Of a DNA stretch of 64,000 nt, positions 42,399 through 47,607 are shown piece after piece. A program made the position numbers and the translations under genes. The stretch comes from Ignavibacteriota bacterium (GTDB taxonomy: Bacteria; Bacteroidota; Ignavibacteria; Tepidaquicellales; Tepidaquicellaceae): NCBI GenBank assembly GCA_016218085.1, contig JACREY010000015.1, positions 124,001 through 188,000 on the forward strand. Direction: 5' to 3'. The notes beneath the pieces were generated by a model. It searched no databases, was not told where the DNA came from, and saw nothing but the letters and a program-made list of their open reading frames with translations. Every line of letters starts with the position of its first letter. Within the stretch, counting starts at the first letter, position 1.

Positions 42399-44075
42399 TT
42401 ATGTTTTATTTTTTTCGATTTCTCCGAGTGCTTCTTCAATAGAGCCGAATAAATTATCTTCTCCGATTTTATCAATAAGTTCTGCCTGAACTATAGCAAA
42501 TAAAGGTTGCTTATGCAAACCCGAAATAAGGAACCTTGTTTTTTGTTTTTTTAATTGCTGGTAGAGATCTTCGAGTGCGCGGATTCCGGATGCATCTATC
42601 GAAAGCAGATTATGAGTTTCAAGAATCAGGAATTTTGGCTTTTTTTCAATCACACGCATAGATTCGGTAAACTGCTCGACTGCACCAAAGAACAGAGAGC
42701 CATAGACCTCGAATATTTCCACACTGTCAGGCATCTTAAGACTTGTTTCATTGCTTTCCTCTTTGCCTTCATAATCTTCTTTTATATCTTTAGTGATTGC
42801 ATTCACCTGGCTTACTTCAGCCATGCGTTTCATAAAGAACATTGCTGAGAGAACAACACCAACTTCTATGGCAACCGTAAGATCAACGACAACAGTCAGA
42901 ACAAAAGTTAAAAGCATAACCGCAACATCGCTTCTTGGGCTTTTCAAAAGCTTTTTAAAAGACCGCCATTCGCTCATATTGTAAGCAACAACAACGAGTA
43001 TAGCAGAAAGAGTTGGAATCGGGATTAAAGCAGCCCATTTACCGAAGAAAATCATAATAAGAAATAAAATTACACCCTGCACTATTCCCGCAACCGGTGT
43101 CCTGCCGCCGTTTTTAACATTTGTAGCTGTTCTAGCAATTGCACCTGTAGCCGGTATTCCGCCGAATATAGGAGAAAAAATATTTGCTATTCCCTGAGCA
43201 ACAAGTTCCATATTGGACCTGTGTCTTGACCTTATCATACCATCTGAAACTACAGCAGAAAGAAGGGATTCAATAGAGCCAAGAAGAGCAAGAGTAATTG
43301 CCGGTGAAAATACACCCGTTATAGTATCCCAGCTTAAAGAAGGAAGTCTCGGAGACGGAAGAGAAGAAGGAACAGCTCCGAATTTGCTGAAAATCGTATC
43401 TACTTTAATATTGAAAATCTGAACAATTACGGTAGAAGCAATAATTGCAACGAGTGGTCCAGGAATCTTCCGTGAAATTCGAGGCCAGAAGATAATTATC
43501 AGGAGCGAGAATAAGGAAACAGCAATTGCATCAAAACTGACGGCGGAAAAATTATGGAAATAAACATACCATTTAGACATAAAGTCTGCAGGTAAATCGT
43601 TTATCTGCAGACCGAGAAAATCTTTTATTTGAGAAGTAAAAATAATCAGGGCAATTCCGCTTGTAAAGCCAACAGTCAGCGGATAGGGAATAAATTTTAG
43701 AAGTGTTCCAAGTCTTGCAACACCCATAAAGATAAGAATAACCCCTGAAATGAGTGTAGCTGCGGCTAAGCCATCGATACCGTATTTCTGAACTATTCCG
43801 TAAACAATTACGATAAAAGCCCCAGTCGGTCCGGCAATCTGGACGCGGCTTCCACCTAAGACAGCGACGATAATACCTGCAATTATTGCAGTATAAAGAC
43901 CTTGCTCGGGTTTAACTCCGGAAGCAATTGCAAATGCAATTGCAAGCGGCAGAGAGACTATACCAACAATTGTACCCGCGGTTAAATCCGATAAAAAGGC
44001 TTTTTTAGAGTATCCTTCTTTTAAAACCGTAAAAAGTTTAGGGCGGAACATATTCTTCATATTATGCTCCATCAT
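42399..44075 (-). CDS. SulP family anion transporter with STAS domain
   Basis: A 558-residue inner-membrane transporter of the SulP/SLC26 family (sulfate, bicarbonate or other anions). The N-terminal F-L-S-D-L-T-A-G-T-I-V-G-I-V-S-L-P-L-A-I-A-F-A-I-A-S-G motif, about 12-14 hydrophobic segments, and a cytoplasmic STAS domain at about 440-550 with D-A-S-G-I-R-A-L-E-D-L are clear. Which anion it carries is not determined. Several Met codons stand at the start (residues 1, 2, 6); the first is used. It follows queF by 44 bases. Confidence 0.93.
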   Translation of the reverse strand: MMEHNMKNMFRPKLFTVLKEGYSKKAFLSDLTAGTIVGIVSLPLAIAFAIASGVKPEQGLYTAIIAGIIVAVLGGSRVQIAGPTGAFIVIVYGIVQKYGIDGLAAATLISGVILIFMGVARLGTLLKFIPYPLTVGFTSGIALIIFTSQIKDFLGLQINDLPADFMSKWYVYFHNFSAVSFDAIAVSLFSLLIIIFWPRISRKIPGPLVAIIASTVIVQIFNIKVDTIFSKFGAVPSSLPSPRLPSLSWDTITGVFSPAITLALLGSIESLLSAVVSDGMIRSRHRSNMELVAQGIANIFSPIFGGIPATGAIARTATNVKNGGRTPVAGIVQGVILFLIMIFFGKWAALIPIPTLSAILVVVAYNMSEWRSFKKLLKSPRSDVAVMLLTFVLTVVVDLTVAIEVGVVLSAMFFMKRMAEVSQVNAITKDIKEDYEGKEESNETSLKMPDSVEIFEVYGSLFFGAVEQFTESMRVIEKKPKFLILETHNLLSIDASGIRALEDLYQQLKKQKTRFLISGLHKQPLFAIVQAELIDKIGEDNLFGSIEEALGEIEKNKT

Positions 44076-44119: not shown

Positions 44120-44485
44120 TTACTTCTTTCCATGTACAGAAGTGACGGTAGAATACAGTCCTCCTCTTGTTGTGAATATACCTTTTACTTCCATCCATTT
44201 AGGATTCATGACAGAGACAAGGTCGTCGAGGATTCTGTTAATTACATTCTCATAAAATATACCGTCATTCCTGAATGATTGAAGATACATTTTAAGAGAT
44301 TTTAATTCCACGCATTTTTTCTTTGCTATATAGGAGATTTCGATTGTCCCGAAATCGGGCTGTCCCGTTTTAGGGCAGACGGAGGTGAACTCGCTTGTTT
44401 TATGTACGATGAGATAATTTCTGTTTGGATAAGTGTTATCGAAAACTTCAAGGAGTTTTGTTTTGTTTGTGCTTTTCATAATCAA
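44120..44485 (-). CDS. queF: NADPH-dependent preQ0 reductase
   Basis: Reduces the nitrile preQ0 to preQ1 in queuosine synthesis. The short, single-domain form (121 residues). Active-site Cys37 and Asp44 are in S-V-C-P-K-T-G-Q-P-D-F-G, and E-L-K-S-L-K-M-Y-L-Q-S-F-R-N-D-G is the NADPH-binding QueF motif. Only three bases separate it from the stop of the response-regulator gene, so they share a transcript. queC, which makes its substrate, is 6 kb away in another operon. Confidence 0.96.
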   Translation of the reverse strand: MIMKSTNKTKLLEVFDNTYPNRNYLIVHKTSEFTSVCPKTGQPDFGTIEISYIAKKKCVELKSLKMYLQSFRNDGIFYENVINRILDDLVSVMNPKWMEVKGIFTTRGGLYSTVTSVHGKK

Positions 44486-44488
44486 TAT

Positions 44489-45874
44489 TTACTTTTTAAC
44501 TGAAAATTCTTTCGGGTTGATTCCCAGCTTAGCAATCTTCTGCCGCAAGCTTATCTGATGAAATCCGATTACCCTGCCGACCTCGCTGATATTCCCCTTG
44601 CACAGTTTAAGATATTTTTTAATAAAATTCACTTCAAAATCATTTACCGCTTTTGCCTTGTTGGCTTTGTAGCTGCTGTTTGCAAAAAGGTCTTTATATT
44701 GCTCGACTTCGAGTATATTTTCCGGAAAAAGTTCTTTTCTTATAACACCGTCTGTACAAAGTATCACTACCCTTTCCGCAGTGTCCTTTAACTCGCTGAG
44801 GTTTCCGGGCCACATATAATTTATTATCATTCTTGTGACATCGGGGCTGATTTCTTTTACGGTAAGATTTTTGCTGTATGCGATTTCCTCAACAAATTTA
44901 TTAAAGAAAAAAAGTATATCTTCAGGTCTTTCTTTAAGAGGCGGGATATTAATTTCGAACAACTTTAGTTTATTATATAGGTTTTCATTGAATTTCCTTT
45001 CATAGACGAGTTTCTCCAGTCCTTCGGATGATGACACAATAATTCTTGCATTAGATATGTTCAGCTTGTTTTCCCCGAGTTTTGAAAACTGTTTTTCATT
45101 AAGCACTCTAAGAAGTTTTAGCTGAACGTAACTGCTGAGTTTTGAAATCTCATTTATGAAAATCGTACCTTTTTCAGCTATTTCAAGATAGCCTTTATTC
45201 GCACTGATAAACTTTTTCGAATATCCTTTTATGTGACCGAACAATTCGGATTCAAAAGAATCATCCGACAGCGTATTGCAGTCAAGACTAATAAATTCGT
45301 ATTTAGCGCCCTGGCTGTTATTATGAATAAACCTTGCAAGTTCCTGTTTTTCGGTTCCCGGCTCTCCTGTAATCAATATTGCAGAATCAGCAAGTGCAAT
45401 CTGCTTTGCGTTTTCCATTATGCCTTTCATTTTGTCATTATCGGAAATCAATACAGGAACGTTTTTTGTTCTTTTCAGTTCCCTGCTTAGCAGAAGGTTT
45501 TCCTTAAGCAGAGTGGCTTTTTCAATTCCGCGGCTGATAATCAGAAGCAATTCGTCTTTATTGACAGGTTTCGAAAGAAAATCAAATGCACCGAGCCTGA
45601 TAGCTTCCACTGCAGTCCTGATGGAGCCGTATGCAGTAATGAGAATTACTATCATATCAGGTTCAATCTGGAGAACTTTTTCGGTCAGTTCTATACCGTT
45701 CATCAGTGGCATATTAAGGTCTGTAAGCATTACATCGAATCTGGATGCGCTGATTTTCTTGAGTGCTTCCTCTCCGCCTGATGCAAGTGTGACTGAATAC
45801 CCGGCATCGGAAATAATTTTTTTAAGAATTGCTCTCGACGAGGATTCGTCGTCGACAATAATGATTCTTTTCAT
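44489..45874 (-). CDS. NtrC-type response regulator with degenerate AAA+ domain
   Basis: 461 residues: receiver (1-120), AAA+ (about 143-375), Fis-type HTH (about 411-455). The receiver is intact: acidic pocket D8-D9, phospho-site Asp52, Thr80, Lys102. In the AAA+ domain every catalytic position has changed. Walker A is G-E-P-G-T-E-K-Q (170-177), with Glu for the last Gly and Gln for Thr/Ser. Walker B is I-F-I-N-E (Asn241 for Asp). G-A-F-T-G-A is replaced by G-Y-S-K-K-F (217-222). The arginine fingers of F-R-E-D-L-Y-x-R-L are N296 and K302, and the sensor II Arg of N-V-R-E-L is Ser360. So it should neither hydrolyse ATP nor engage sigma-54. The fold-keeping parts (E-L-F-G-H, P-P-L-K-E-R-P-E-D-I, W-P-G-N-L) remain, suggesting selection for a DNA-binding, phosphorylation-responsive protein. 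No cognate kinase is adjacent. Confidence 0.9.
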   Translation of the reverse strand: MKRIIIVDDESSSRAILKKIISDAGYSVTLASGGEEALKKISASRFDVMLTDLNMPLMNGIELTEKVLQIEPDMIVILITAYGSIRTAVEAIRLGAFDFLSKPVNKDELLLIISRGIEKATLLKENLLLSRELKRTKNVPVLISDNDKMKGIMENAKQIALADSAILITGEPGTEKQELARFIHNNSQGAKYEFISLDCNTLSDDSFESELFGHIKGYSKKFISANKGYLEIAEKGTIFINEISKLSSYVQLKLLRVLNEKQFSKLGENKLNISNARIIVSSSEGLEKLVYERKFNENLYNKLKLFEINIPPLKERPEDILFFFNKFVEEIAYSKNLTVKEISPDVTRMIINYMWPGNLSELKDTAERVVILCTDGVIRKELFPENILEVEQYKDLFANSSYKANKAKAVNDFEVNFIKKYLKLCKGNISEVGRVIGFHQISLRQKIAKLGINPKEFSVKK

Positions 45875-46086: not shown

Positions 46087-47607
46087 TCATGCATATTTTG
46101 CAGTGCTTCTCTCTCTGACCTGCATTGATTGTTCATTATATTTTGCAAGAATCCAAGAATGGCTGATAGTGTCCTTGGCAGTCGAAAGTCTTCTGCGATA
46201 TGTAGAAAAATGTTTCTGCGGCAATTGCCCTGCTTTAAATAAAATTAGTTTATTAAGATATGAAACAAAGTTCTTAGTTCTGTTTTTTTCCTGCTCAGAA
46301 ATCATTTCATTCCTGTTCATGAATTTCTTGTAGCTATCGATAAGCATCAGAGCCTCTTCATAATGCCCCATTTCATAATATAACTTGAGTGCATAGTTTT
46401 TCAAATCATATTTGTAAATAAATGAATCGATTTTTATCTTATTAAGATATTTCCAACTTTTTAAATAATCGCCTTTTTCATAGTAAAGATAAGTATAAGC
46501 GAGATTCATCATATTTTCCTTATCGGATTTATGAAGCTTTGGTCCGTAGTTAATTATGAAATTCTCAACCCAGTTCATTTTTTTGAGCCTCAGTCCCAAT
46601 TGCAGGATTTCCCTGAAAAATTCATATCTAAGGTAATTCACTTTTTTATTTGTATAGTATTCATTACTCAGAATTTCCTCGTTAATTTCGAACATTTCCA
46701 GGTTATATTTATCGGAGGAGTGGTCACCGGACTGAATTTGCCTAAGGGTGCAGTAGTTAACCATATTATTATAATGAAACCATGCCTCATCTTTATCCAT
46801 TTTAGATGAATGAGCTCTGACAAGATTTTTATATTCATAATATGCATCATCGCTTTCCATATTTTCGAACATTTTCATCAGAGAGATATAAATATTTATC
46901 ATAAAGCTGTGTTCGGTTTGTGACAGAAGCGACTGAAGGTCTTCCAGATTCACCAACTTTATTGCTTTTTTAAGAAAATTATTTTCTATTGGCCTGTTAT
47001 AGTTAATCGAGTAAAAAATACTTGCAAGATACAGAGAGATTATTTCAATTACATAATGCACGGTAATATATATTCCCGAAAGATAAAGTTCATTCAAGTG
47101 TTCATCGGCAACTTTATTATCCATAATCTTTTCATTCACTGCAGAAAAATTAAATTTATTCAGTTCAATTTTATGCTTGGCGAGATAATACTCAGAATCT
47201 ACATTTTTAAGTTCGGAATAGCGGTTATTAAGTTTTTCGGAATTTCTCAGAAACACATCTGCAAGTTTTTTTTCTCTGAGTTCTTTCAGAAGATAGTCAA
47301 ACGAAAGGAGGGCAGATTTTCTGAAATTCTCCTGCATAAGGAACAATTCGGAGGAATTTACAAGGTCAGAAAGCAGGTTTCTGATTGTGGAATCATTGAA
47401 CTTTCCCTGCCCGAATAATTTGCTGCTAATAAATTCCTTCGAAAGCTTGTCCGAATTAAAATCCGGATAGAATTTCACTAAAATTTCGAACATAGAATTG
47501 ACATTCCTGCTTCTGTTGAAATACGGCGAAGCAAGAAATTTTCTGAACTGTTTAATTTCTTCTTCAGAGAGAGCTTTCAAAATATCTATAATCTGATGGT
47601 CAATCAT
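46087..47607 (-). CDS. large helical protein, unknown, TPR-like
   Basis: 506 residues with no recognised domain. The N-terminal phrase L-S-E-E-E-I-K-Q-F-R-K-F-L-A-S-P-Y-F-N-R-S-R recalls a Bacteroidota/Ignavibacteria family of uncharacterised proteins. The rest is nearly all helical with regular aromatic positions (A-Y-T-Y-L-Y-Y-E-K-G-D-Y-L-K-S-W-K-Y-L, A-L-K-L-Y-Y-E-M-G-H-Y-E-E-A-L), suggesting TPR-like helical pairs, especially after residue 370. No signal peptide. The C-terminal tail (R-R-R-L-S-T-A-K) is basic. Monocistronic; a scaffold or regulatory role is a guess. Confidence 0.65.
   Translation of the reverse strand: MIDHQIIDILKALSEEEIKQFRKFLASPYFNRSRNVNSMFEILVKFYPDFNSDKLSKEFISSKLFGQGKFNDSTIRNLLSDLVNSSELFLMQENFRKSALLSFDYLLKELREKKLADVFLRNSEKLNNRYSELKNVDSEYYLAKHKIELNKFNFSAVNEKIMDNKVADEHLNELYLSGIYITVHYVIEIISLYLASIFYSINYNRPIENNFLKKAIKLVNLEDLQSLLSQTEHSFMINIYISLMKMFENMESDDAYYEYKNLVRAHSSKMDKDEAWFHYNNMVNYCTLRQIQSGDHSSDKYNLEMFEINEEILSNEYYTNKKVNYLRYEFFREILQLGLRLKKMNWVENFIINYGPKLHKSDKENMMNLAYTYLYYEKGDYLKSWKYLNKIKIDSFIYKYDLKNYALKLYYEMGHYEEALMLIDSYKKFMNRNEMISEQEKNRTKNFVSYLNKLILFKAGQLPQKHFSTYRRRLSTAKDTISHSWILAKYNEQSMQVRERSTAKYA

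Follow-up and report, generated by a model that had tools for sequence, protein, structure and literature searches.

Sigma54-dependent enhancer-binding proteins (EBPs) contact sigma54 through the L1 loop of their AAA+ domain, and hydrolyse ATP with their arginine fingers and Walker residues (PMC7175178). EBPs devoid of the GAFTGA motif are already known and act at sigma70 promoters (PMC10274813). The NtrC of Rhodobacter capsulatus requires ATP binding, the NtrC of Caulobacter requires its Walker A and B residues, and VpsR, also an EBP without GAFTGA, was reported to be active without ATP (PMC10274813). All GAFTGA-less EBPs with sequences compared here retain the ATPase motifs. A search of largely open-access literature, in which an absence weighs little, found no description of a response regulator of the EBP type that has lost every ATPase motif.

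The window analysed here is a stretch of 64,000 nucleotides from an Ignavibacteriota bacterium (contig JACREY010000015.1). Its minus strand encodes a degenerate NtrC-type response regulator of 461 residues (44489..45874), referred to below as the pseudo-EBP. The frame opens with an ATG at 45874 and contains no internal stop, as the sequence-only reading had claimed. The Pfam domain order is that of an NtrC-type response regulator, with a receiver (residues 1-115, 45530..45874; PF00072, 2e-31), a Sigma54_activat AAA+ core (residues 143-308, 44951..45448; PF00158, 3e-42) and its lid (residues 309-392, 44699..44950; PF25601, 2e-17), and a Fis-type helix-turn-helix (residues 412-457, 44504..44641; HTH_8, E 4e-4). 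The receiver residues D8, D9, D52 (the putative phospho-acceptor), T80 and K102 are present, as had been stated, and they recur in every orthologue, a set consistent with a phosphorylatable receiver. It was also fair to call the helix-turn-helix intact, its HTH_8 score of 20.5 bits (cut-off 22) being comparable to the 20.0-22.9 bits of the intact sister protein described below (20.0 for the full-length sister). The PF00158 score is 147 bits versus 219-257 bits for nine EBPs of the same genome. The genome encodes a second EBP without the GAFTGA loop, also an NtrC-type response regulator (L049, G000:C21:287116-288444; PF00158 155 bits), in which Walker A, Walker B and the finger arginines are largely intact.

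Alignment of the window protein with 41 relatives confirmed every residue previously assigned to the Walker motifs, L1 loop, sensors and arginine fingers. Walker A reads GEPGTEKQ, with G175E and a glutamine in place of the acidic residue after the P-loop lysine (G170, G173 and K176 are retained), and Walker B reads GTIFINE, with D241N and E242 retained. The L1 loop is GYSKKF and not of the GAFTGA type found in functional sigma54 EBPs, sensor I is SSS (T282S, N283S), and the arginines of both fingers and of sensor II are replaced (R296N, R302K, R360S). Relative to the sisters, G175E, D241N, N283S and the three arginine replacements leave no competent ATPase site; of the catalytic residues of the AAA+ domain only two remain, Lys176 in the P-loop and Glu242 in Walker B. 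The 'switch' Asn is altered as well (Asp198), a weak sign given that Asp occupies this position in 4 of 15 intact EBPs. All 19 sister proteins retain the Walker A Gly, the L1 F-T-G-A, the Walker B Asp and Glu, the sensor-I Thr and Asn, both arginine fingers and the sensor-II Arg; the motif loss is therefore more than chance.

Unbroken orthologues occur in seven genomes of one Ignavibacteria family, the window's genome (G000) included. Identity to the window protein is 76% in G001, the second species of the genus, 62% in G005, 53% in G003 and about 48% in G018, G014 and G004. No member was found outside the family among 294 genomes of the class, and a scan of genome contigs returned no named orthologue; its one match, in an Ignavibacteriae MAG, was to the sister. 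In a tree of 42 rows, the seven orthologues and one row from G011 form a clade (support 97/92) inside a 27-row subfamily (100/100) that contains the 19 intact sisters. The normal L1 loop and the sensor-I Asn are missing from all eight rows of the clade: in the seven, T220, the sigma54-contact Thr, has become E, Q or K, whereas in G011 part of L1 is deleted. The seven also have in common the change of arginine finger 1 to I or N and of the sensor-II Arg to S or T. Finger 2 is Lys in G003, G005 and the window's genus. G005 and this genus have further lost the Asp of Walker B, the acidic residue that follows the P-loop Lys, and most of L1; loss of the Walker A Gly is confined to the genus. On the simplest reading of these sequences, sigma54 contact and sensing would have been lost first and nucleotide chemistry last. 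The G011 protein (L035, G011:C6:129801-131165), basal in the clade and with DD in Walker B, took a separate route of degeneration, in which finger 2 was lost and the Walker B Glu became Asp independently of the seven.

Related genomes thus share the losses in nested order. Intact motifs with broken frames in sister strains, the mark of a recent decay, were looked for and not found, the frames of all seven orthologues being open. The proposed loss of the entire AAA+ engine is true of the window's genus alone: more distant orthologues retain Walker A and B, and K176 and E242 remain even in the window protein, so that the loss was gradual.

The AlphaFold2 model of the protein has a mean pLDDT of 88 (88-97 in the AAA core), from an input alignment of 31 relatives, mostly intact ones, that favours the canonical fold. 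The predicted fold matches EBP AAA+ structures across the entire domain, such as LuxO 5ep3 (Z 31.9, rmsd 1.4 over 253 residues) and NtrC1 1ny6 (Z 31.3, rmsd 1.5 over 247 residues), and also matches VpsR and FleQ. According to the model the sequence is compatible with the EBP AAA+ fold, a result that says nothing on nucleotide binding. The domains are unequally conserved. Between G000 and G001, identity of the pseudo-EBP is 88.7% in the receiver, 65.7% in the AAA core, 73.8% in the lid and 95.7% in the helix-turn-helix, versus 96.5%, 95.2%, 84.5% and 95.7%, respectively, for the intact sister in the same species pair. Changes in the AAA core amount to 57 of 166 residues in the pseudo-EBP and 8 of 166 in the sister (Fisher 4e-12). 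The pN of the core, 0.20, is relaxed about fivefold against the sister, but set against a pS of 0.76, at which synonymous sites are saturated and dN/dS is therefore not fixed, it means that the AAA core of the window's genus is relaxed but still constrained. In the less degenerate pair G014 and G004 the AAA core is 88.6% identical versus 88.0% in their sister pair; the relaxation therefore followed the later losses.

The pseudo-EBP gene is followed, on one strand and with short gaps, by queF (44120..44485, minus strand; PF14489, 1e-31), a gene for a sulP family transporter (42399..44075, minus strand; PF00916, 8e-90) and fumC. Co-transcription with queF and sulP, as previously suggested, is plausible from this tight spacing, and queF is a conserved neighbour in G000, G001, G005 and G003, but sulP is absent here in G001 and G005. 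fumC is a partly conserved neighbour, and a gyrA-like gene lies near the pseudo-EBP in G000, G001, G003, G014 and G004; the positions of queF and the gyrA-like gene are in accord with the tree. The upstream gene (46087-47607, minus strand) codes for a protein of 506 residues with no Pfam match, 56% identical in G001 versus 76-92% for the neighbours. No kinase gene adjoins the pseudo-EBP. A scan of the window for sigma54 -24/-12 promoters yielded 35 matches versus 41 expected, none of them before the pseudo-EBP gene, and a sigma70 promoter scan performed no better than shuffles. Footprinting of the upstream regions of G000, G001, G005 and G003 revealed no conserved operator, and an Rfam search before the queF cluster no riboswitch. 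The window's genome possesses rpoN and retains a GAFTGA-like loop in 9 of its 11 clear EBPs; sigma54 control as such was therefore not lost.

The window's genome also encodes an intact sister (G000:C21:199981), which is 47% identical to the window protein, belongs to the same subfamily (100/100) and keeps GSFTGA and all ATPase motifs. The sister adjoins genes for an Hpt protein and for a PAS-containing hybrid kinase that carries two receivers plus an Hpt domain. In G000, G006, G008 and G005 the stretch that separates the Hpt gene from the kinase gene contains a sigma54-like promoter (TGGCATAATTTTTGCA and variants) (L063:9831-9846 on G000:C21, L065:8120, L059:9387 and L064:11840). Sister copies with intact motifs are interrupted by one TAA in G001 (L033, G001:C80:7408-8787) and by one TAG and two TAA in G004 (L038, G004:C26:55477-56895), be these stops real or assembly errors. 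Extra sister copies of 429-434 residues, with GSFTGA intact and the helix-turn-helix absent, are present in G019 (L036, C2) and G007 (L037, C1). In five genomes a dyad, ATAGT-N6-ACTAT, lies a short distance upstream of the start of the hybrid kinase gene (L063:9967-9982; L057:4854; L059:9514; L064:11976; L065:8247), where it is a candidate operator; weak copies stand at the pseudo-EBP start codon in G004, G014 and G018. As an operator common to the sister and the pseudo-EBP it was rejected, there being none at the window's gene, and it lacks genome enrichment (10 sites versus 30 for the reversed control).

The reading preferred here, with a probability of about 0.6, is that the pseudo-EBP, an orphan response regulator descended from a sigma54 EBP, has turned into a sigma54-independent, nucleotide-free DNA-binding regulator. 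It probably acts as a simple signal-gated regulator: phosphorylation of Asp52, by a kinase that we infer to exist, would alter the receiver dimer, and the helix-turn-helix would then bind operator DNA to repress or activate target promoters that the primary sigma factor recognises. The AAA+ domain would no longer hydrolyse ATP, would probably no longer bind it, and may persist as a passive folded spacer or oligomerisation scaffold. Sigma54-independence, which the sequence-only reading had raised, is supported because every member of the clade lacks the normal L1 contact and the gene is not preceded by a good sigma54 promoter, in contrast with the sister locus and its sigma54-like promoters. 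Against an ATP-free model stand the R. capsulatus and Caulobacter NtrC precedents, which differ in their need for ATP, and the remaining Lys176 and Glu242, with which some residual nucleotide binding is possible.

The relationship with the sister suggests another role. The 11-residue reading helix SLRQKIAKLGI is identical in the two proteins, which are of the same subfamily, and unlike that of the genome's other EBPs; the pseudo-EBP might therefore be an antagonist that occupies the sister's DNA sites or joins mixed oligomers and so, in response to a phosphorylation signal of its own, lowers sigma54-dependent transcription. This role, which includes the poison subunit imagined earlier, is unlikely. 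No shared operator was found before the window's gene, and an unbroken full-length sister occurs in only three of the seven pseudo-EBP genomes (G000, G005 and G014); the sister has a stop in G001 and several in G004, and none was found in the incomplete genomes G003 and G018. The antagonist reading is weakened because some pseudo-EBP genomes have no intact sister. The more elaborate version, in which a 'dead motor' EBP copy reading its living sister's DNA evolved into a phosphorylation-controlled antagonist through an ordered series of losses that began with sigma54 contact and ended with ATP chemistry, is slightly less likely still.

The AAA+ domain could alternatively have become a sensor that binds nucleotide or another ligand without hydrolysis, in the manner of VpsR and FleQ, which bind c-di-GMP. 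The conservation of K176, E242 and the fold, and the match of the predicted fold to VpsR and FleQ, would agree with such a function, but the window's genus has Glu in place of the Walker A Gly and a fast-evolving AAA core, and R181, the Arg after Walker A that serves c-di-GMP in VfmH and FleQ, is Lys in G001. A ligand sensor is accordingly rather improbable, and a FleQ-type c-di-GMP pocket is unsupported on account of R181. A slow decay, with a regulator heading for loss and retained for now, would explain the roughly fivefold relaxed pN of the AAA core but fits poorly with frames open in seven species of several genera, a helix-turn-helix 96% conserved between the two species of the genus, pN far below pS in every domain and nested shared losses. 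The gene does not have the features of a pseudogene, decay is very improbable, and the earlier view of a stable pseudo-EBP is supported by the open frames, the nested losses and the maintenance of the receiver and helix-turn-helix.

Loss of GAFTGA alone was already known, but in this case one gene lineage preserves the intermediates between intact Walker motifs without sigma54 contact and a fully dead engine. It provides a testable order for the passage from an ATP-driven activator to a plain DNA-binding regulator, along with naturally occurring variants for probing which AAA+ residue matters for what.

The best match to the window protein in both sequence (E 2e-78) and fold is NtrC1 of Aquifex aeolicus (PDB 1ny5, 4l4u), with a REC-AAA+-HTH layout in common. 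NtrC1 has GESGVGKE, GAFTGA, LDEI, both finger arginines and the sensor-II Arg, whereas none of these motifs is intact in the window protein. VpsR of Vibrio cholerae, compared here apart from its motif residues, likewise lacks GAFTGA and matches the predicted fold, but binds c-di-GMP. Relatives without GAFTGA from Grimontia, Enterovibrio and Aeromonas still have Walker A, Walker B, finger 1 and sensor II, none of which is intact in the window protein. The NtrC proteins of R. capsulatus and Caulobacter are, like the window protein, without GAFTGA, but still require ATP binding and the Walker A and B residues, respectively (PMC10274813). NtrX of Brucella abortus (PDB 5m7n) has also lost the L1 loop and kept the receiver and helix-turn-helix, but in contrast to the window protein it retains GPSGAGKE, LDEV, FREDLFHR and WPGNLR and was crystallised with ATP and ADP. 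With its L1 loop lost and its receiver and helix-turn-helix kept, the window protein resembles the sigma54-independent EBP-like regulators represented by R. capsulatus NtrC, VpsR and NtrX.
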